Assembly (NCBI GenBank): GCA_002928735.1
Contig: PERL01000012.1
Coordinates: forward strand, 1 to 64,000
Reading direction: 5' to 3'
DNA: 64,000 bases
From: Hyphomicrobium sp.
GTDB taxonomy: Bacteria; Pseudomonadota; Alphaproteobacteria; Rhizobiales; Hyphomicrobiaceae
Shown one piece after another: positions 17,057-43,887 of the stretch. Positions within the stretch are counted from its first letter, which is position 1, and each line of letters opens with the position of its first letter. The position numbers and the translations under genes are program-made. Under the pieces are notes generated by a model. That model was not told where the DNA came from. It saw only the letters and a list, made by a program, of their open reading frames with translations, and made no database searches.

Positions 17057-18276
17057 TAGTCTCGCGCCATTTCAGCCGCGACCTCGTCGAACACCTGCGC
17101 AAACAGAACCGCGCCGTCATTCTTGACGTTCGTATCCATCCGCTCGTCGAGCGCCTTGAGCAATTCCGCCCCCGTCTTGCCGCGAACGATCGTGTTGCGC
17201 CCATAGGCCCCACGCTCGAAAAAGTTCGGCGTCGTGGCCGCCCGTCCCGCCGGCGTCATCATCTCCAGCCCCGTTGCCGGCCCGGCCAGATTCATCAGCT
17301 CGATCTCCGCCCCCGACAGGCGCGTCTTGCCACGCTTGTCGGCCAGCTCCTTCAGACCGAGAAGTTTGAGAACCTGCAACCACGGTCCAATATCGCCGTC
17401 GATGTTAATGGCGTGAATGCCATAGCCTTTGGCGGTCCGGCCCAGCGCCTGATGCCGGCTCCACTCGTTCGGCACCGACTTCGACACCGCCAGCATACGC
17501 GTTAGAATCTGCGCCTTGCGCTGATATTTTTTACGAGCGTCCTCCGTCCGCGCACGAGCCGCCATGTCCTTTAGTCGCGCGATGAACCCCGGCCCATGTT
17601 TGACGAGTTCGCTCGTCGAATTGGCCGACAGCAGCTGCGCATATCCAATCGCCGTCGAAATCGGCGTGCCCTTTTTGGTGATGGGATGGATGCCCGCCAC
17701 CATATCCGCCGTGCCAAGCCCGCTGGTCTCCAGCGCATAGACGCGCACGACCTGTTCTTTCGTCAGCCCAACGCGCAACGCCTCCCGCGCATACCGCCGC
17801 TTGAATTCGCGCTCGGCAATGCGCTCCGGCACGAACCCGAATTGCTCCCGCGCATGGGCTAGAAAATCATCAACGCCGGGAAGCGGCTCACGTGGCGGCT
17901 TCTTTTCCGCCTGCGCCTCTTGGAATTTCGCCCAGCGCTTCGCGAGATCAGCGGACAACTTCGGGCCCGTGTAGTCCGGCGGAAAGCCCTTCGCATAGTC
18001 TTTCGCGGTGATCGCCTGATCGGCAGCCCGCTTTTTGCGCCGCGCCGCACGCTTCTCGCTAACCTCGTCCCAGAACTCATCGAGCGTCAGGTTGTAGAAG
18101 CGCCGGGCCGACATGTACGTCTCGAACGTCCGCCGCTCGGACGCCGAAAGCCCCGCAGCGAAATTGCGCTCGGGCGACGCCACGGCCGGCGAGGGGGCAG
18201 CCGTCGCCAACGCCACCAACACCAGGGCAACAACCGCGATCATCACACGGCCGATCTGCCAAAGACCCACACTCAT
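17056..18276 (-). CDS. Secreted protein with a lysozyme/transglycosylase-like core
   Basis: From the ATG at 18276 (AGGTGAA ribosome site) the product has 406 aa. An N-terminal hydrophobic signal or anchor (MIAVVALVLVALATAA) precedes an Arg/Lys/Ala-rich helical section. The middle holds YALETSGLGTADMVAG followed by STAIGYAQLLSANSTSEL, an arrangement like the catalytic Glu and GYxQ segment of soluble lytic transglycosylases. A role in peptidoglycan cleavage is therefore possible. The C-terminal part (KTRLSGAEIELMNLAGP, NFFERGAYGRNTIVR) is not recognised. The family assignment is tentative. Confidence 0.62.
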   Translation of the reverse strand: MSVGLWQIGRVMIAVVALVLVALATAAPSPAVASPERNFAAGLSASERRTFETYMSARRFYNLTLDEFWDEVSEKRAARRKKRAADQAITAKDYAKGFPPDYTGPKLSADLAKRWAKFQEAQAEKKPPREPLPGVDDFLAHAREQFGFVPERIAEREFKRRYAREALRVGLTKEQVVRVYALETSGLGTADMVAGIHPITKKGTPISTAIGYAQLLSANSTSELVKHGPGFIARLKDMAARARTEDARKKYQRKAQILTRMLAVSKSVPNEWSRHQALGRTAKGYGIHAINIDGDIGPWLQVLKLLGLKELADKRGKTRLSGAEIELMNLAGPATGLEMMTPAGRAATTPNFFERGAYGRNTIVRGKTGAELLKALDERMDTNVKNDGAVLFAQVFDEVAAEMARD

Positions 18277-18420
18277 ATCGATCTTCACCTGAAAAACCGT
18301 CCGCCCACGACTGTATTGCTCACGATTCGCTCGGATTTGGTCATGCGAAGTCGCGCGAAATGCGGCAGAGGGAGTATGGTCGCGCGCGATCAAGTATGAC
18401 CCGGAACACACCTTAAGCCC

Positions 18421-19092
18421 ATGCACGGACTGCCAGACCAGGACCCGTTCGGCCTCGACGCTTTCCGCGCCGCTGCAGCAACGCGCCTGCTCGCCTCGCC
18501 GACTTTGCCCAGCGCCACGCCCGTCGGGCCCGTCCCCCCGCCAAGCGACTTCGACCTCAATCCGTCAGCCTTCGCCGAATGGAACGGCCCCGCCCCCGTC
18601 CGCCCGGCAGCCGTCCTGGTTCCAATCGTCGCCCGTGACGGCCTCACGGTTCTCCTCACCGAACGCACGCCCCACCTCGCCGCCCACGCCGGCCAGATCG
18701 CATTCCCCGGCGGCAAACCCGATCCCGGCGACACGGGACCCATCGACACCGCCTTGCGCGAGGCTGAAGAAGAAATCGGCATCTGCCGCAGTTTCGTCGA
18801 ACCCCTAGGTTTCCTCGACATCTATCGCACCGGCACGGGCTTCGCCGTCACCCCCGTGGTTGCCCTTATCCGTCCGGACTTCGCATTGTCGCTCAACACC
18901 AATGAAGTTGCAGCCGCCTTTGAAGTGCCGCTTGCCTTCCTGATGGACCCGGCCAATCATCGCATCGATGCCCGCACCCTCGGCGGCCGCGACCGGCGCT
19001 TCTACGCGATGCCTTACGGCGAACGCTATATCTGGGGCGCAACAGCGGGTATCCTCCGAAACATGCACGACAAGCTCTTTTCCGCGCCATAA
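18421..19092 (+). CDS. Nudix hydrolase, CoA pyrophosphatase type
   Basis: The 223-aa protein has the NudL-type signature LLTERTPHLAAHAGQIAFPG followed by a Nudix box with REAEEEIG. It should hydrolyse CoA or related dinucleotides. It is first of a plus-strand unit with a DUF6111 protein and CCA-transferase, an order seen in other Hyphomicrobiales. The ATG at 18421 overlaps the divergent gene's upstream frame but not its real start. The gap 18277-18420 holds both promoters. Confidence 0.9.
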   Translation: MHGLPDQDPFGLDAFRAAAATRLLASPTLPSATPVGPVPPPSDFDLNPSAFAEWNGPAPVRPAAVLVPIVARDGLTVLLTERTPHLAAHAGQIAFPGGKPDPGDTGPIDTALREAEEEIGICRSFVEPLGFLDIYRTGTGFAVTPVVALIRPDFALSLNTNEVAAAFEVPLAFLMDPANHRIDARTLGGRDRRFYAMPYGERYIWGATAGILRNMHDKLFSAP

Positions 19093-19114
19093 GTGGCGCC
19101 GATATCAAGGTCAC

Positions 19115-19405
19115 ATGATCCGCATCGTCATTGAGAATATTCTGCTCTTCCTCCTCCCCACCCTCGCCTACCTTGGCTGGGTCCTGATCGCGCGTCCCGA
19201 AACGCTCGAGCGCACGCCCGGCGGCCGCATCCGCCCCATGCGTGTTCTCAACGACGCCCCCCTCCTCTGGCTCGCCGCATCCGGCACGATCCTGCTGATT
19301 GTCGTCCTTGTCGCCTTCGGTAAAACGTCGGGCGGCCGCCCCGACCAAACCTACAGCCCGCCCGTCTTCAAAGACGGCAAGATCCAGCCGGGCCACATCG
19401 AATGA
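19115..19405 (+). CDS. DUF6111-family small membrane protein
   Basis: The 96-aa protein begins MIRIVIENILLFLLPTLAYLGWVL, has a second hydrophobic segment (LLWLAASGTILLIVVLVAFG) and ends with a soluble, Pro/Lys-rich tail (YSPPVFKDGKIQPGHIE). Sequence and position between the Nudix gene and cca match the DUF6111 family. Function unknown; translational proximity to cca suggests co-expression. Confidence 0.82.
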   Translation: MIRIVIENILLFLLPTLAYLGWVLIARPETLERTPGGRIRPMRVLNDAPLLWLAASGTILLIVVLVAFGKTSGGRPDQTYSPPVFKDGKIQPGHIE

Positions 19406-19421
19406 GCAACGGACGCTGACC

Positions 19422-20696
19422 GTGACCGCCGCTGACCCAACCGCGCCCGTCCCCAATCCACGGCTCGCCACCGCCCCCTGGCTCACCGCGCCGGCCACGC
19501 AATCCGTTCTAAAAGCGATCACCGCCGGCGGCGGCGACGCCCGCATTGTCGGCGGCGCCGTCCGCAACACGCTGCTGGGCTACCCCGTTACCGACATCGA
19601 CATCGCCACCACCGTCCGCCCCGAAGACGTCATCACCCGCGCCGAACACGCCGGCCTCCAGGCCATCCCCACCGGCCTCGCGCACGGCACCGTCACTGTC
19701 ATCGCGGACCACAAACCCTTCGAGGTCACGACGCTACGCCGCGATGTCGAAACACATGGCCGCCACGCCACCGTGGCGTTCACCGAAGACTGGTCCACCG
19801 ACGCCCATCGCCGCGACTTCACAATCAATGCCCTGTATTGCGACGCCGGCGGCCGTCTGTTCGACGCCACTGGCGGCCTCGCCGATCTGTCCGCCAACCG
19901 CGTCCGCTTCATTGGCCGGCCCGAGGATCGCATCACCGAGGACTATCTGCGCATTCTCCGCTTCTATCGCTTCACCGCGCACTACGGCGCCGGCCGCATC
20001 GACCGCGAAGGCCATGAAGCCTGCGCCGCTATGCAAGACGGACTCGACGGCATTTCGGCCGAACGCATCCGCTCTGAATTGCTAAAGCTCCTCGCCGCCC
20101 CCTATGCCGCGATCACCGTTTCCGAAATGGACGAAACCGGACTGCTGACGCGTACCCTCGGTGCCCCCGCCGACGTCATCACCTTCGCCCGCCTCGCCGC
20201 CATCGAATCCGCCAACGGCATCGCGCCCGACCCCATCCGCCGTCTCTACGCGCTTGCCGTCGTCAAGCCGGCTGATGCTGCCCACCTGCGCGACCGCCTG
20301 CGCCTCTCCAAATCCGAATACGAGCGCTTAGCCGATCTCACGCTGCCCGACCGCGCCGTCGAACCCGATACGAACGAAGACCGCGCCCGCTGCTTCATCT
20401 ACCGCCATGGCGGCGGCACATTCTGCGATGGCGTCTTGATCTCCTGGGCGCGCGATCTGGCAGCCGATCCGTCAAGCGGCCCCCACCGCCAACTTCTGAC
20501 GCTCCCCGATCGCTGGACCGCCCCCAAGCTGCCCATGTCCGGCAAGGACGTCATGGCGCTCGGCGTGCCCGCCGGTCCCGAAGTGGGACACATCCTCGAA
20601 CTCTTCGAGCACTGGTGGATGACCGCCGGCTTTCCCGCCGACGAGGCCACCGTGCGCGAACGGCTCCGCGCGCTCGTCAACCTTAAGAACGCGTAA
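19422..20696 (+). CDS. cca: CCA tRNA nucleotidyltransferase / poly(A) polymerase family
   Basis: The enzyme adds or repairs the 3' CCA end of tRNAs, or is a related poly(A) polymerase. The nucleotidyltransferase core is in IVGGAVRNTLLGYPVTDIDI with the catalytic DxD, followed by DFTINALYCDAGG and RFIGRPEDRITEDYLRILRF, all family hallmarks. A GTG at 19422 is taken as start (424 aa), 16 bp after the DUF6111 stop; the frame is open further upstream but overlaps that gene. The encoded tRNA-Tyr in this window already carries CCA, so repair may be the main role. Confidence 0.93.
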   Translation: MTAADPTAPVPNPRLATAPWLTAPATQSVLKAITAGGGDARIVGGAVRNTLLGYPVTDIDIATTVRPEDVITRAEHAGLQAIPTGLAHGTVTVIADHKPFEVTTLRRDVETHGRHATVAFTEDWSTDAHRRDFTINALYCDAGGRLFDATGGLADLSANRVRFIGRPEDRITEDYLRILRFYRFTAHYGAGRIDREGHEACAAMQDGLDGISAERIRSELLKLLAAPYAAITVSEMDETGLLTRTLGAPADVITFARLAAIESANGIAPDPIRRLYALAVVKPADAAHLRDRLRLSKSEYERLADLTLPDRAVEPDTNEDRARCFIYRHGGGTFCDGVLISWARDLAADPSSGPHRQLLTLPDRWTAPKLPMSGKDVMALGVPAGPEVGHILELFEHWWMTAGFPADEATVRERLRALVNLKNA

Positions 20697-34152: not shown

Positions 34153-34259
34153 AGCACCGCCCCTCCCGGACGCTGTTCGGGGCGATGTTCGCCGCATCGC
34201 CTTCCGCCCTACCTTTATGCTACCAAGACGCACGCGTAGAGACCGCTCCAGAGATCAAC

Positions 34260-36425
<2,166 letters not shown>

Positions 36426-39652: not shown

Positions 39653-41824
39653 TTACGCAGCCGCGCCCGCGCTCCCCCGAGCCGACAACATCTTCTCCAG
39701 GCGATTCCCCGCGGCCTTGAACGTCAAGATCTCCCGCGCCCGCTCCGCAATTTGCGCACCCGCAGCCGCTGGCGGCAACCCGCCGCTGTAGATGTTCGAA
39801 ATAACCGAATACTCATATCGCGCATCCGCACCGGGCTCCGTGATGCGATAGGCTATGTACGCCGACAAACTCCGCGACGCGATGGCGTCCCCGCCCGGCC
39901 GCTCGCCAATGAGCGTGATGACCAGTTTCGGCGCCAGCGCGTCTCCGATGTCTTCGGCCAGCTTCACCCGCCCATAGGGCGCCAGGATCGGCCGCCCGAC
40001 GCCAAAACCGCTCTTCTCCAGCGCCGCTGTCAGCACCGGTAGCAAGTCGGGTATGTTGTGATGCACGGCCTCCGCACTCAAGCCGTCCGACACGACGATC
40101 TGCACATCCGTCGTCTCCGGCCGCAACTCCGCCCGTGCCGCAGCCGCAATACGCGCGCCCTTCTCCGGATTGTTCAGATGCGCCACCTTCGACTCCGCCG
40201 CCGTCGCAACCCGGCGGAACTCCATCCGGCCCAGATACTGCGGCTCGACCTCCGCATAGATTGCCTCGCGCGCCACCGCCAGATTGGCCTTCACCGCGCG
40301 CGACACATGATCGGCTGGACGCGGCCCCGCATTCTCCAACCCATACGCCGCCGGCACTTTCGCCATCAGGCGGGCGAACGTCTCTTCACTTTCGCAGAAG
40401 ATCCGCGGATTGCCCCAGTTCGGCCCGCGCTCGATCTCCCCGTCCTCGCCCTCTTGAAAAATCCCGCGCGAAACCGCCCACGCCAGATACTCCGGCGCCG
40501 GCCGCAGCCCATGCACCTCGCGCATCGTCTGATCGTCGTGCCCCGCCGTGTCGAAGTAGGCGAGCATGCGATCCACGCCGAGATAAACGTCCATGAAGTA
40601 ATTCGCGCCCGCCGCCGTAAGCAGTTCGGTCGCGATCTGTTGGCCTTCCATCGTGATTTCGGAATGCAGCGTGTAACAAGGCGCCATCCCCATCGGCAGG
40701 CCGATCAGCTTGCCCATGAAATGATCCTGCAAATTCGACACGATCATTTCGAAGTTCGTCCGGTGCGTCTCCGGCCCGATGAACCCCGTCACGTTGTTGA
40801 CCATGAACGGATCATAGCGCCGCGCGAGGCCATAGCAGAGCGCCTCCGTCGTCGTCATATCGATGCCGTTGTGCTTGCCGTAGGTGAGTTCGCTGCCCTG
40901 CCCCGTCTCGAAATACATGAACTGCCGTGCATCGCGCCCGAGCGGTCCCTTGTCCGCCATCATCCGGGTGGCCGCATCGAGCACATCAACGGTCACATCG
41001 AATTCTTCCGTGAGCGTCCGGTCCGTCCCCGCCAGCGACTGGAACATGATCTCCACCGGCGCGCCCCGCTCCAGACACGCCATCTGCGTCTTCACGTGGC
41101 TGAGAACGCAAATCTGCGTCGGCGCGCCGGTTTCCCGCCGCAGGCCATCCAAGTGCCGCAAGATTTTGTCGATGTTGTCGACCGTATCGATCGCCGGATT
41201 GAGACCGATGAGTGCGTCTCCCGCCCCCATCGACAGCCCCGTATAAACGAGCGCCGTCACCGCCGTCAGATCGTCAGTGGGATGGTTCGGCTGCAACCGC
41301 GACGATAGCGTGCCGGCGAGCCCCACCTCCGTCCGCGCCTTGCCGCTCCGCTTCAATTTCCGCGCGGCGTAGATGAGCTCATGCACATCCATCAACTTGG
41401 CGATGGCCGCCACCATCACACCCGTGAGCCCGCGCCCGATCCGCTTGGCCTCCGACGATTTCGCCTTCAACAAACGATCTTTCACCACCCCGCACGTCAG
41501 CGGCGCAAGCTCGGCAAACACGTCTCGATCAATGTCGTAGTTCACCCGCATCACGTCATCGACGCTGCCGTTGTCGGCGACCAGAGGCCGGTCATAGAGA
41601 TGCTGCATCGTCAGGCCGGAGAGGATGTTCCGCGCCGCTTCGCGCTCCACCTCATCCTTGGCGGCGAGCCACGCCAGCCGCTCGCCCGCCTTGTCAAAGT
41701 CGGCCGCCCCCAGGAGGTGCTTCAGCCCCCGAAACGCGTAAGCCCGGTCAAAGAGGGTGATCTTATACGTCTCGTCCGGCTGCGGCTCGGGAACCCAAAT
41801 TTCGGACAGCGGCGTGAGGATCAT
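39653..41824 (-). CDS. Single-chain ethanolamine ammonia-lyase (EutB-EutC fusion)
   Basis: The enzyme is expected to split ethanolamine to acetaldehyde and ammonia using adenosylcobalamin. In this 723-aa chain residues about 15-455 match the large subunit EutB (RLQPNHPTDD 176-185, LIGLNPAID, MYFETGQGSELTYG 303-316, FIGPE 348-352, LGVDRMLAYFDTAGHDD, LRPAPEYLAW). Residues about 520-710 match the small subunit EutC (SDGLSAEAV, LIGERPGGDA 638-647, SLSAYIAYR, SNIYSGGLPP). A linker of roughly 65 residues joins them. Normally these are two genes. Some EutB positions differ from the classical sequence, so the substrate may be ethanolamine or another amino alcohol. No shell or eutA genes lie nearby. 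GGAG precedes the ATG. Confidence 0.9.
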   Translation of the reverse strand: MILTPLSEIWVPEPQPDETYKITLFDRAYAFRGLKHLLGAADFDKAGERLAWLAAKDEVEREAARNILSGLTMQHLYDRPLVADNGSVDDVMRVNYDIDRDVFAELAPLTCGVVKDRLLKAKSSEAKRIGRGLTGVMVAAIAKLMDVHELIYAARKLKRSGKARTEVGLAGTLSSRLQPNHPTDDLTAVTALVYTGLSMGAGDALIGLNPAIDTVDNIDKILRHLDGLRRETGAPTQICVLSHVKTQMACLERGAPVEIMFQSLAGTDRTLTEEFDVTVDVLDAATRMMADKGPLGRDARQFMYFETGQGSELTYGKHNGIDMTTTEALCYGLARRYDPFMVNNVTGFIGPETHRTNFEMIVSNLQDHFMGKLIGLPMGMAPCYTLHSEITMEGQQIATELLTAAGANYFMDVYLGVDRMLAYFDTAGHDDQTMREVHGLRPAPEYLAWAVSRGIFQEGEDGEIERGPNWGNPRIFCESEETFARLMAKVPAAYGLENAGPRPADHVSRAVKANLAVAREAIYAEVEPQYLGRMEFRRVATAAESKVAHLNNPEKGARIAAAARAELRPETTDVQIVVSDGLSAEAVHHNIPDLLPVLTAALEKSGFGVGRPILAPYGRVKLAEDIGDALAPKLVITLIGERPGGDAIASRSLSAYIAYRITEPGADARYEYSVISNIYSGGLPPAAAGAQIAERAREILTFKAAGNRLEKMLSARGSAGAAA

Positions 41825-42130: not shown

Positions 42131-42487
42131 CTACTTCACAACCTCGACAGGTCCATGGTCGTCGCAATGATCGCCGTGGGGATGATGAAGATGTCCATCG
42201 ACGAGATAGTCGACGTGATCTCCATGCGGCACAGCCTCATGCCCGCACCCCGGCCCATGCACGTGTCCGGGCGCATGCCCGGCGCACTGATGCTGCGGCG
42301 TGCAGACGTCCGGGTTCTTCGCCGAAACCTCGATGGCGTGCTCGTCCACGTGCCCAGTGTGCATGTGGTGCAGATGGCCATCATGGAGATAATCGACGTG
42401 ATCGCCATGCTTCACAGCCGTATGCCCACAGCCGGGCCCATGCTGGTGCGCGTGGTTCTCGTGATGCGGAAGTTTGCAGTCGCCCAT
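42131..42487 (-). CDS. Histidine-rich protein with a duplicated metal-binding motif
   Basis: The 118-aa cytoplasmic-looking protein is extremely rich in His. Two copies of HGPGCGHxAVxHGDHVDYL followed by xDGHLHH (about 16-41 and 77-102) are joined by a spacer with CTPQHQCAGHAPGHV. The many His and Cys could bind Zn, Ni, Cu or Co as a store or chaperone. There is no signal peptide. A partly related short family exists in rhizobia near metal genes, but no metal transporter is next to it here. Confidence 0.8.
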   Translation of the reverse strand: MGDCKLPHHENHAHQHGPGCGHTAVKHGDHVDYLHDGHLHHMHTGHVDEHAIEVSAKNPDVCTPQHQCAGHAPGHVHGPGCGHEAVPHGDHVDYLVDGHLHHPHGDHCDDHGPVEVVK

Positions 42488-42628
42488 AGCATGGCTCCAA
42501 GTCAGATTAGGCAAATCAAGACTAAGACTAGCGCAACTCCGCGTCACAATCAGCCCCCGATCACTCTTTTCGGATAAGGCCCTCCCGTGCCACGCTGCGA
42601 TCCGGAGAATCACGGAGGGAAAATCACC

Positions 42629-42883
42629 ATGGACTGGGGCGCGATTTTTCAGGACCCACAGCGCGTAGGATTGATGCTCTTGATCGCCGTCGGCGCGGCG
42701 ATGATCGGACGCGTGGTCTATAACATCTGGCCGAAGACCCAGAGCCCGGCCTTTTGGGGCTCCGCTGCCGCCTTCCTTGTTGTCGGCGCGCTGGCCTACA
42801 TGGGCATCCCCGAAGCCGGCATCGTCGTTTGGCTCTTCATCGGCCTTGCCGTCATTTTCGGTGCCGCTGCCCTCGTCCTCTGA
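42629..42883 (+). CDS. Small membrane protein with three hydrophobic segments
   Basis: The ATG at 42629 (GGAGGG ribosome site) gives 84 aa with VGLMLLIAVGAAMIGRVVYN, PAFWGSAAAFLVVGALAYMG and GIVVWLFIGLAVIFGAAALVL. No family is recognised. It precedes the pirin gene by about 86 bp. Confidence 0.7.
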   Translation: MDWGAIFQDPQRVGLMLLIAVGAAMIGRVVYNIWPKTQSPAFWGSAAAFLVVGALAYMGIPEAGIVVWLFIGLAVIFGAAALVL

Positions 42884-42969
42884 CGCCCGCAACTGCACAG
42901 TCCTCAGCCTTTTATCGCCGCGCCGCGCGTGGCAATCTCGTTCTCCAAACCACACACGAGGCGAGAACC

Positions 42970-43887
42970 ATGAGCTGGCTCCCCGACACAGATCCAAATC
43001 CCGGCGACACCAAGGCCTGCGATCTCATCGAGCAGGTCATCGTGCCCCGCGCCCGCGATCTTGGCGGCTTTGAAGTCCGCCGCGCGCTGCCAGCCGCCGG
43101 CAAACAAATGATCGGCCCCTTTATCTTCTTCGACCAGATGGGCCCGGCCGAATTCTTGATCGGCCAAGGTATCGACGTCCGTCCGCATCCCCACATCGGT
43201 CTTTCCACCGTCACCTACCTTTTCGACGGCGAAATCATGCACCGCGACAGCCTCGGCACCGAACTGGCGATCCGTCCCGGCGCTCTCAACCTCATGACCG
43301 CCGGCCGCGGCATCGTCCATTCCGAGCGCACCGCCCCCGAATTGAAAGCCACCGGCCCACGCCTGTTCGGCATCCAGGCCTGGGCGGCCTTGCCAAAATC
43401 CCACGAAGAGAACGCGCCCGCCTTCATCCACCACACCGAAGCTGAACTGCCGCGGATCATGGGCGAAGGCAAACGCGTCCGCCTGATCATGGGCTCGATG
43501 TACGGCGAGACCTCGCCCGCCCAATTCCCCCATGATTGCGTTTACGCCGAAGCCATCCTCGCACCCGGCGCCGTTCTCCCCCTCGATCCCGACTACGACG
43601 AGCGCGGCCTCTTCATCGTCTCCGGCGAAATCGACATCGCCGGTGAAACGTTCGGTCCCGGCCGCCTGCTGGTGTTCCGTCCCGGCGACCGCATCTCAAT
43701 CCTCGCGCTTACCCAATCCCGCTTGATGATCGTCGGCGGCGAACCCATGGACGGCCCGCGCCATATCTGGTGGAACTTCGTCTCTTCATCCAAGGAGCGC
43801 ATCGACCAAGCCAAGGAAGACTGGCGCCAAGGTCGCTTCGACACCGTCCCCGGCGACGCCGCCGAATTCATCCCGCTACCGGACTAA
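42970..43887 (+). CDS. Pirin family cupin protein
   Basis: The 305-aa protein has the pirin metal-binding motif HPHIGLSTVTYLFDGEIMHRD and GRGIVHSER in the N-terminal cupin and a second cupin with ERGLFIVSGEIDI. Pirins bind Fe and some act as quercetin dioxygenases or transcriptional cofactors. ATG at 42970 after GAGGCGAGAACC. A role in redox sensing or aromatic turnover is only inference. Confidence 0.93.
   Translation: MSWLPDTDPNPGDTKACDLIEQVIVPRARDLGGFEVRRALPAAGKQMIGPFIFFDQMGPAEFLIGQGIDVRPHPHIGLSTVTYLFDGEIMHRDSLGTELAIRPGALNLMTAGRGIVHSERTAPELKATGPRLFGIQAWAALPKSHEENAPAFIHHTEAELPRIMGEGKRVRLIMGSMYGETSPAQFPHDCVYAEAILAPGAVLPLDPDYDERGLFIVSGEIDIAGETFGPGRLLVFRPGDRISILALTQSRLMIVGGEPMDGPRHIWWNFVSSSKERIDQAKEDWRQGRFDTVPGDAAEFIPLPD

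Follow-up and report, generated by a model that had tools for sequence, protein, structure and literature searches.

A stretch of 64,000 nucleotides from Hyphomicrobium sp. (contig PERL01000012.1; hereafter the window) contains one gene that encodes both subunits of ethanolamine ammonia-lyase, EutB and EutC. This raises the question of whether its product is an ordinary ethanolamine ammonia-lyase in an uncommon form or an enzyme with another substrate. Fused EutBC proteins and the suggestion of choline as a substrate are already in print: the parts of a 2012 study on Pelobacter carbinolicus on which we draw describe two fusions, EutBC1 and EutBC2 (Pcar_0491 and Pcar_0467), one of which was suggested to be a choline trimethylamine-lyase (PMC3543383). 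By that description alone, the likeness to the window protein lies in the fusion of large and small subunits and in a genome without eutA. A subsequent study reports that Pelobacter has cutC (PMC6331629). In the literature searched, which included few subscription journals, we found neither a measurement of activity for a fused EutBC nor a description of the Asp362 replacement presented below.

Both subunits of ethanolamine ammonia-lyase in one chain

A first-pass annotation of this DNA had placed the EutB and EutC motifs in one frame of a 723-residue chain, which the open reading frame and the Pfam matches confirm (Table 1). The linker, given there as 65 residues, is shorter, as the two Pfam matches lie 22 residues apart. 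At an E value of 0.001, Pfam detected EutB and EutC and no other domain in the window protein. In an AlphaFold2 model built from 34 fused proteins (mean pLDDT, 88.1; pTM, 0.87), the EutB part superposes on E. coli EutB (3abo_A) with 447 aligned residues (Z score, 48.4; 1.7 A) and the C-terminal part on EutC (7xrm_B) with 232 (Z score, 25.4; 3.0 A). By its domains and this predicted fold the window protein belongs to EutBC, with ~39 to 40% identity to the E. coli enzyme in EutB. It differs from E. coli EutBC in being a single ORF instead of two separate subunits, in the replacement of Asp362, and in scoring below the curated NCBIfam cut-offs for EutB (439.8 versus 554 bits) and EutC (157.5 versus 230 bits). 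The model also resembles the adenosylcobalamin (AdoCbl)-dependent diol and glycerol dehydratases in its large-subunit fold (Z scores, 18.6 to 19.8), but with 13 to 14% identity and no Pfam match the protein lies outside their sequence family.

Table 1. The fused gene and its parts, in window coordinates
Feature	Position	Strand	Basis
Fused EutB-EutC gene	39653..41824	(-)	Single 723-codon ORF, ATG start, 723 aa
EutB (large-subunit) domain, residues 29-458	40451..41740	(-)	Pfam PF06751, 454 bits; model versus 3abo_A
Residues 459-480, 22 residues separating both Pfam matches	40385..40450	(-)	Pfam boundaries
EutC (small-subunit) domain, residues 481-709	39698..40384	(-)	Pfam PF05985, 178 bits; model versus 7xrm_B
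Ala381 codon, position of E. coli EutB Asp362	40682..40684	(-)	Alignments: D in 12/12 classical, 0/79 fused

The immediate neighbours in the home genome (a TetR-like gene, an FA_desaturase gene, and a histidine-rich ORF) yield no functional clue. The histidine-rich ORF lies upstream of the fused gene (42131-42997, minus strand), contains repeated HGPGCGH and HGDHVDYL-type stretches, and matched neither Pfam nor NCBIfam families. The gene for a further B12 enzyme, methylmalonyl-CoA mutase, lies ~3 kb from the fused gene (34185-36425, plus strand). A search of the window for a cobalamin riboswitch with Rfam matched just a tRNA, and promoter and tandem-repeat scans near the fused gene gave nothing exceeding chance.

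Intactness and distribution of the fusion

In a scan with one genome per species, the same fusion was found at 79 related loci (the best 80 of 98 matches) in many phyla, with hosts in Hyphomicrobium, Acetobacter, Xanthobacter, Burkholderiales, Planctomycetota, Myxococcota, Bdellovibrionota, Desulfobacterota, Verrucomicrobiota, and Gammaproteobacteria. Of the 79, 77 have a single ORF in which the alignment extends beyond 600 residues, and at L073 and L076 it is split into two ORFs. The first-pass annotation had allowed for a frameshift correction or a sequencing error joining two genes. An artefact of this kind or of the assembly, for which we found no supporting point, is excluded by the 77 single-ORF loci and is further opposed by the family members in 17 of 103 genomes, and its probability is negligible.

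The fused gene is rare and scattered in its phylum and order: it occurs in 2 of 398 genomes drawn from the home phylum and in 4 of 397 from the home order, the home genome being included in both. In the home family, 17 of 103 genomes carry it as an open frame of more than 700 residues. Among the matches listed, the closest relative was that of a Hyphomicrobium metagenome bin (97% identical). A copy on a Methylocystis plasmid is annotated as ethanolamine ammonia-lyase.

Replacement of Asp362 in the active site

We aligned 79 fused proteins (from 77 loci, the window, and L085; the broken ORFs of L073 and L076 were left out) with 12 classical EutB proteins. Arg160, Gln162, Asn193, Glu287, and Phe329 (E. 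coli EutB numbering) were retained in all 91 sequences and are thus common to the window protein and E. coli EutBC. Asp362, present in 12/12 classical proteins, was replaced in 79/79 fused proteins, by alanine in 63 (among them the window protein, with Ala381), serine in 12, and glycine in 4. Other frequent changes were Asn403 to Ala (78/79), Gln405 to Phe (73/79), and Ala298 to Lys (68/79). Outside the fused clade, position 362 was aspartate in 34 of 35 EutB-family sequences, namely 12/12 classical proteins, 12/13 further non-fused EutB, 3/3 of L140 to L142, 4/4 of L156 to L159, and 3/3 of L110, L113, and L114; the exception was L143. The GKHNG and LHSEIT segments, singled out in the first-pass annotation as departures from classical EutB, are real differences; the loss of Asp362 had not been named there.

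Work by Shibata (2010) and Mori (2014) is reported to assign binding of the substrate hydroxyl to Glu287, Arg160, and Asn193, and binding of the amino group to Glu287, Gln162, and Asp362. We take Arg160, Asn193, and Glu287, and also Gln162, all of which the window protein keeps, to be the residues that would hold the substrate hydroxyl and guide the radical, and the Ala381 position to be that of the amine-contacting Asp362. The substrate residues Arg160, Gln162, Asn193, and Glu287 were thus present in 79/79 fused proteins and the amine contact Asp362 in 0/79. On balance the findings favour the earlier suggestion that this may be a B12-dependent lyase in its own right that would act on another substrate, and the loss of Asp362 is the most informative of the changes. 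The reading that we prefer, to which we give about an even chance, is that the window gene encodes an AdoCbl-dependent lyase for N-methylated ethanolamines, of which choline would be the most likely; choline itself is a tentative assignment. We prefer it because an amine-binding aspartate has been lost in favour of small residues and because a TmoX-like transporter and genes for trimethylamine (TMA), dimethylamine (DMA), or methylamine use accompany some fused genes, as described below. Against it, Gln162, also assigned as an amine contact, is retained.

The main rival, which we regard as possible and somewhat unlikely, is an ordinary ethanolamine ammonia-lyase isoform in which the fusion and the Asp362 change affect kinetics or regulation and leave the substrate as it was. 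The five active-site residues kept in 79/79 proteins are consistent with such an isoform, and the aspartate found in 34 of 35 other sequences argues against it.

Neighbourhoods of the fused gene

An EutA match was found at most 1.8 kb upstream of the fused gene at 62 of 80 loci and at none of 13 Hyphomicrobium-type loci; its absence could barely be examined at L013 (11 upstream bases) and L079 (which begins at the contig end). The first-pass remark that eutA is not nearby therefore holds for the window, and also for the home genome (96.86% complete), in which the best hit of the EutA profile reached 23.7 bits against a cut-off of 27, but not for most related loci. Transporter genes near the fused gene were of the APC permease (13), EutH (9), TRAP (6), and OpuAC (2) types at the 80 loci, and the Kistimonas and Parendozoicomonas loci carry eut shell, EutP, or EutQ genes. 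EutH at 9 of 80 loci and the eut shell genes of Endozoicomonadaceae point to ethanolamine-like substrates and, together with the adjoining EutA, favour the ethanolamine isoform. The Endozoicomonadaceae stretches in which the fused gene lies with eut shell, EutP, or EutQ genes are L060:4238-8258 and L069:12557-14484; in L060 an alkaline phosphatase gene adjoins eutA.

Some loci hint at yet other substrates. A different amino alcohol or diol, such as 2-aminopropanol or 3-aminopropanediol, with substrates differing among the Ala, Ser, and Gly 362 subclades, appears rather unlikely to us as a general explanation. It is in keeping with the separate subclades that Ser and Gly at 362 mark, with the Ser362 rows, which include all 6 TRAP-transporter loci, one of them with octopine-dehydrogenase- and ornithine-cyclodeaminase-type genes, and with glycerol-kinase-like genes at 5 of 80 loci; no neighbouring gene indicates such a substrate for the Ala subclade that contains the window protein. 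In the locus concerned (L051:7465-13277), the Ser362 fused gene is followed by the TRAP transporter and these two types of genes, an arrangement that may reflect a different substrate. Sequence matches of the TRAP binding protein to numerous TRAP structures indicated no ligand.

Twenty classical eutBC regions (19 regions plus L086, including the short stretches L117, 6.4 kb, L133, 2.5 kb, and L134, 11 kb) served as a control. They gave no match to TMA, DMA, or methylamine genes or to OpuAC-type binding proteins, the exceptions being a single SoxB match with 25% identity and matches to generic ABC ATPases. The control left out the place in G880, whose coordinates equal those in G043, where tdm lies ~14 kb from classical eutB. 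The EutA query matched Stutzerimonas L123 alone among the 20 regions, where both enzymes, eutH, and eutA are in one cluster. In Stutzerimonas kirkiae (L024:325-7559), a row of genes comprises eutH, eutA, the fused gene, and the classical genes eutB and eutC. As to neighbourhoods identical to those of the classical enzyme, which the first-pass annotation had considered, those of the fused gene differ in some lineages by methylated-amine genes but not in all, other lineages having EutH or eut shell genes.

Methylated-amine genes and a TmoX-like transporter

In Acetobacter, the fused gene lies within an island of such genes, whose outer part is described from G1003, one of 4 close genomes. Dmm-type genes with a haem N-demethylase gene, a GcvT-like gene, an FMO gene, and a TMAO demethylase gene are followed, on the opposite strand, by three genes of a quaternary-amine-type ABC transporter, eutA, the fused gene, and a gene of LuxR type, then by folD, purU, soxA-like, and soxB-like genes, and finally by mgsABC-like and gmaS-like genes. 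The pathway names given to these neighbours (mgs, mgd, dmm, gmaS, etc.) are in part our assumption. The gmaS-like gene is 62% identical to a home-genome gene that exceeds the type III glutamine synthetase cut-off. The FMO of L017, 96% identical to that of G1003, matches trimethylamine monooxygenase 6kbw with 615 bits, behind other FMOs in the PDB. The TMAO demethylase of L105, the one locus scored, reached 1105.7 bits against a cut-off of 1100. The soxA-like gene exceeds its cut-off (1382.7 bits) and could, from its sequence, encode a sarcosine oxidase or an N-methylglutamate dehydrogenase. Tdm and the transporter were present at 4/4 close Acetobacter loci (L017, L104 to L106); eutA was called in 3 of these and uncalled in L106.

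A second arrangement was found in Granulosicoccaceae, where a single strand bears gmaS (684.8 bits versus a cut-off of 469.6), mgsABC-like genes, purU, and sox/mgd-like genes together with eutA and the fused gene, and where DmmA-like and haem N-demethylase genes lie further downstream. With 472 and 843 bits, the sox/mgd-like genes did not reach the cut-offs of the sarcosine oxidase families (529 and 1164). Because neither tmm nor tdm was matched on the 196 kb read of the 200-kb contig, the amine may be dimethylamine or methylamine in this lineage.

These islands in two lineages speak against the ethanolamine isoform and for N-methylated substrates. On the other side, in the flanks read, methylated-amine catabolic genes occur in only 2 independent lineages of ~80 loci, and those of Xanthobacter, Aquabacter, Acetobacter estunensis, Stutzerimonas, and others are without them. 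Further flanks of Acetobacter estunensis (L016, L107), Xanthobacter, Aquabacter, Stutzerimonas, Desulfospira, and Granulosicoccaceae contained no additional TMA, DMA, or methylamine genes.

The binding proteins encoded at Desulfospira L041 and Acetobacter L104 have 4xz6 as their best PDB match (274 and 267 bits), the structure of Ruegeria TmoX with TMAO; according to the excerpts of the source used here, TmoX binds choline besides TMAO, tmoX of Pelagibacter was not induced by choline, and its authors question a physiological role of choline binding (PMC8918994). In alignments read by eye, both proteins retain Trp55, Trp102, Glu131, and Trp177 of TmoX, whereas Phe220 is replaced by Trp, Trp222 by Tyr, and Phe106 by Gly or Ala. 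The ligands of these transporters were judged from sequence and remain putative. In Desulfospira, corrinoid and URO-D type genes lie ~10 kb away, to which we give little weight.

The classical enzyme and trimethylamine genes in the home genome and family

A classical split pair is present in the home genome as well, with eutB and eutC on contig C9 scoring 729.5 and 314.2 bits; by eye, the pair adjoins permease-like and AraC-type regulator genes. Classical EutB accompanies the fused gene in 16 of 17 home-family genomes, the exception being G058 (71% complete), and in 19 of 50 fused-bearing genomes of other loci, 50 of the 79 loci being covered by this search. This coexistence argues against the ethanolamine isoform, and the remaining 31 of 50 genomes, without classical EutB at E <1e-200, argue for it. 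The presence of the classical enzyme and the lack of an EutA above the cut-off in the home genome would also suit a non-catalytic or regulatory paralogue. This we consider very improbable in view of the five active-site residues kept in 79/79 proteins and the intact ORF at 77 of 79 loci. Nor need the missing EutA mean a loss of activity, because the ethanolamine ammonia-lyase of A. baumannii works without EutA, as stated in the part of the source used here (PMC9426561).

On home contig C6, dmm-, tmm-, and tdm-type genes lie together (L135:5121-12387), probably as a trimethylamine oxidation cluster, and three home-genome genes exceed the type III glutamine synthetase cut-off. A TMAO demethylase exceeded the cut-off in 29 of 103 family genomes and in 16 of the 17 that bear the fused gene; the 17th carries a fragment of it where a contig ends. 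Among the 28 genomes of the two genera with the fused gene, TMAO demethylase occurs in 17/17 fused-bearing genomes (one fragment) versus 4/11 others (P = 2.8e-4 counting the fragment and 1.9e-3 without it, relatedness being ignored). We count this contrast, the C6 genes beside a separate classical EutBC in the home genome, and the lack of methylated-amine genes in the classical control regions in favour of N-methylated substrates. The corresponding value for classical EutB was P = 0.44 in these genera, a comparison with little power, and P = 1e-8 family-wide. Because classical EutB is thus also linked to TMAO demethylase across the family, the family-wide link of the fused gene is confounded. 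Moreover, classical eutB lies 8.6 to 14.8 kb from tdm in 11 home-family genomes, which weakens the claim that the fused enzyme alone accompanies TMA.

Phylogenetic position and other single-chain or Ala-type EutB proteins

The fused clade is set apart by a branch with strong support (100/99 in a tree of 43 rows and 100/100 in one of 20 rows). L140 to L142 encode single chains of ~705 residues with Asp362 and Gln405 that fall outside the clade of the window protein, so that the EutB-EutC fusion probably arose more than once. L110, L113, and L114 represent a second kind of single-chain EutB-EutC in which Asp362 is retained. This second, distant kind is found at L110:8597-10909, L113:7258-9612, L114:7632-9938, and L156 to L159; by eye, the N-termini of L110, L113, and L114 are twin-arginine-like, a feature that one would not expect of a B12 radical enzyme.

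The MGMAPCYT motif of the fused clade recurs in the one non-fused protein with alanine at 362, L143, whose gene is also that of L160. In the 20-row tree L143 was placed outside the supported classical clade, and its branch to the fused clade had no resolved support. Its identity is up to 56% to classical EutB, higher than the 46% to the window protein. A plasmid search with the L160 EutB gave at most 56% identity among the five matches listed, and all 149 matches were below 60%. In G1565, this Ala-type EutB is clustered with eutC, eutA, and eutP as well as with genes for shell proteins and an aldehyde dehydrogenase. The adjacent called gene, divergently oriented, is a 504-codon MTTB gene with a TAG at codon 328 as its sole internal stop, and its best match was trimethylamine methyltransferase 7xcm (343 bits, versus 215 for glycine betaine methyltransferase). 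Another member of the MTTB family is encoded further on (L160:12254-13768 and 18116-19552 for the two). The trimethylamine methyltransferase-like neighbour of this Ala-type EutB counts in favour of N-methylated substrates. L160 alone was matched by an MTTB query among the stretches searched, and a search of the L160 stretch for tRNA genes found none, so that a tRNA-Pyl is not in evidence there.

Discussion

In the reading that we prefer, the fused gene would encode a single-chain, AdoCbl-dependent radical lyase of EutBC fold that acts on N-methylated ethanolamines. A small residue would occupy the place of Asp362, in line with the N(CH3)3 group of choline, which presents no N-H for an aspartate. 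The 5'-deoxyadenosyl radical would abstract a hydrogen from C1, and the amine would depart via direct elimination, not migration, giving acetaldehyde and trimethylamine (or di- or methylamine), the released amine being oxidised by the TMA, DMA, or methylamine pathway of the host. As described in the part of the source used here, Glu287 facilitates migration in ethanolamine ammonia-lyase, and CutC is thought to eliminate directly (PMC8473560). The proposed conversion of choline to trimethylamine and acetaldehyde, deduced from context, would be shared with CutC. CutC is a glycyl radical enzyme, whereas Pfam found EutB and EutC alone in the window protein and no glycyl radical enzyme domain. Substrates may also differ between the subclades.

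Glycyl radical enzymes such as CutC are confined to anaerobic conditions. It is possible, though less likely than not, that a widespread AdoCbl-dependent choline trimethylamine-lyase descended from ethanolamine ammonia-lyase operates in aerobes, Hyphomicrobium and Acetobacter among them, and supplies the oxidation of TMA, DMA, and methylamine, as an oxygen-compatible counterpart of CutC. Choline-derived trimethylamine matters for human TMAO, methanogenesis, and marine nitrogen. If the proposal is true, aerobes with such a B12-dependent lyase would constitute a new source of methylated amines that cutC surveys overlook; such proteins are annotated today as plain ethanolamine ammonia-lyase, as one RefSeq example illustrates. 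The Ala, Ser, and Gly subclades make the substrate choice of a B12-dependent lyase testable at a single residue.
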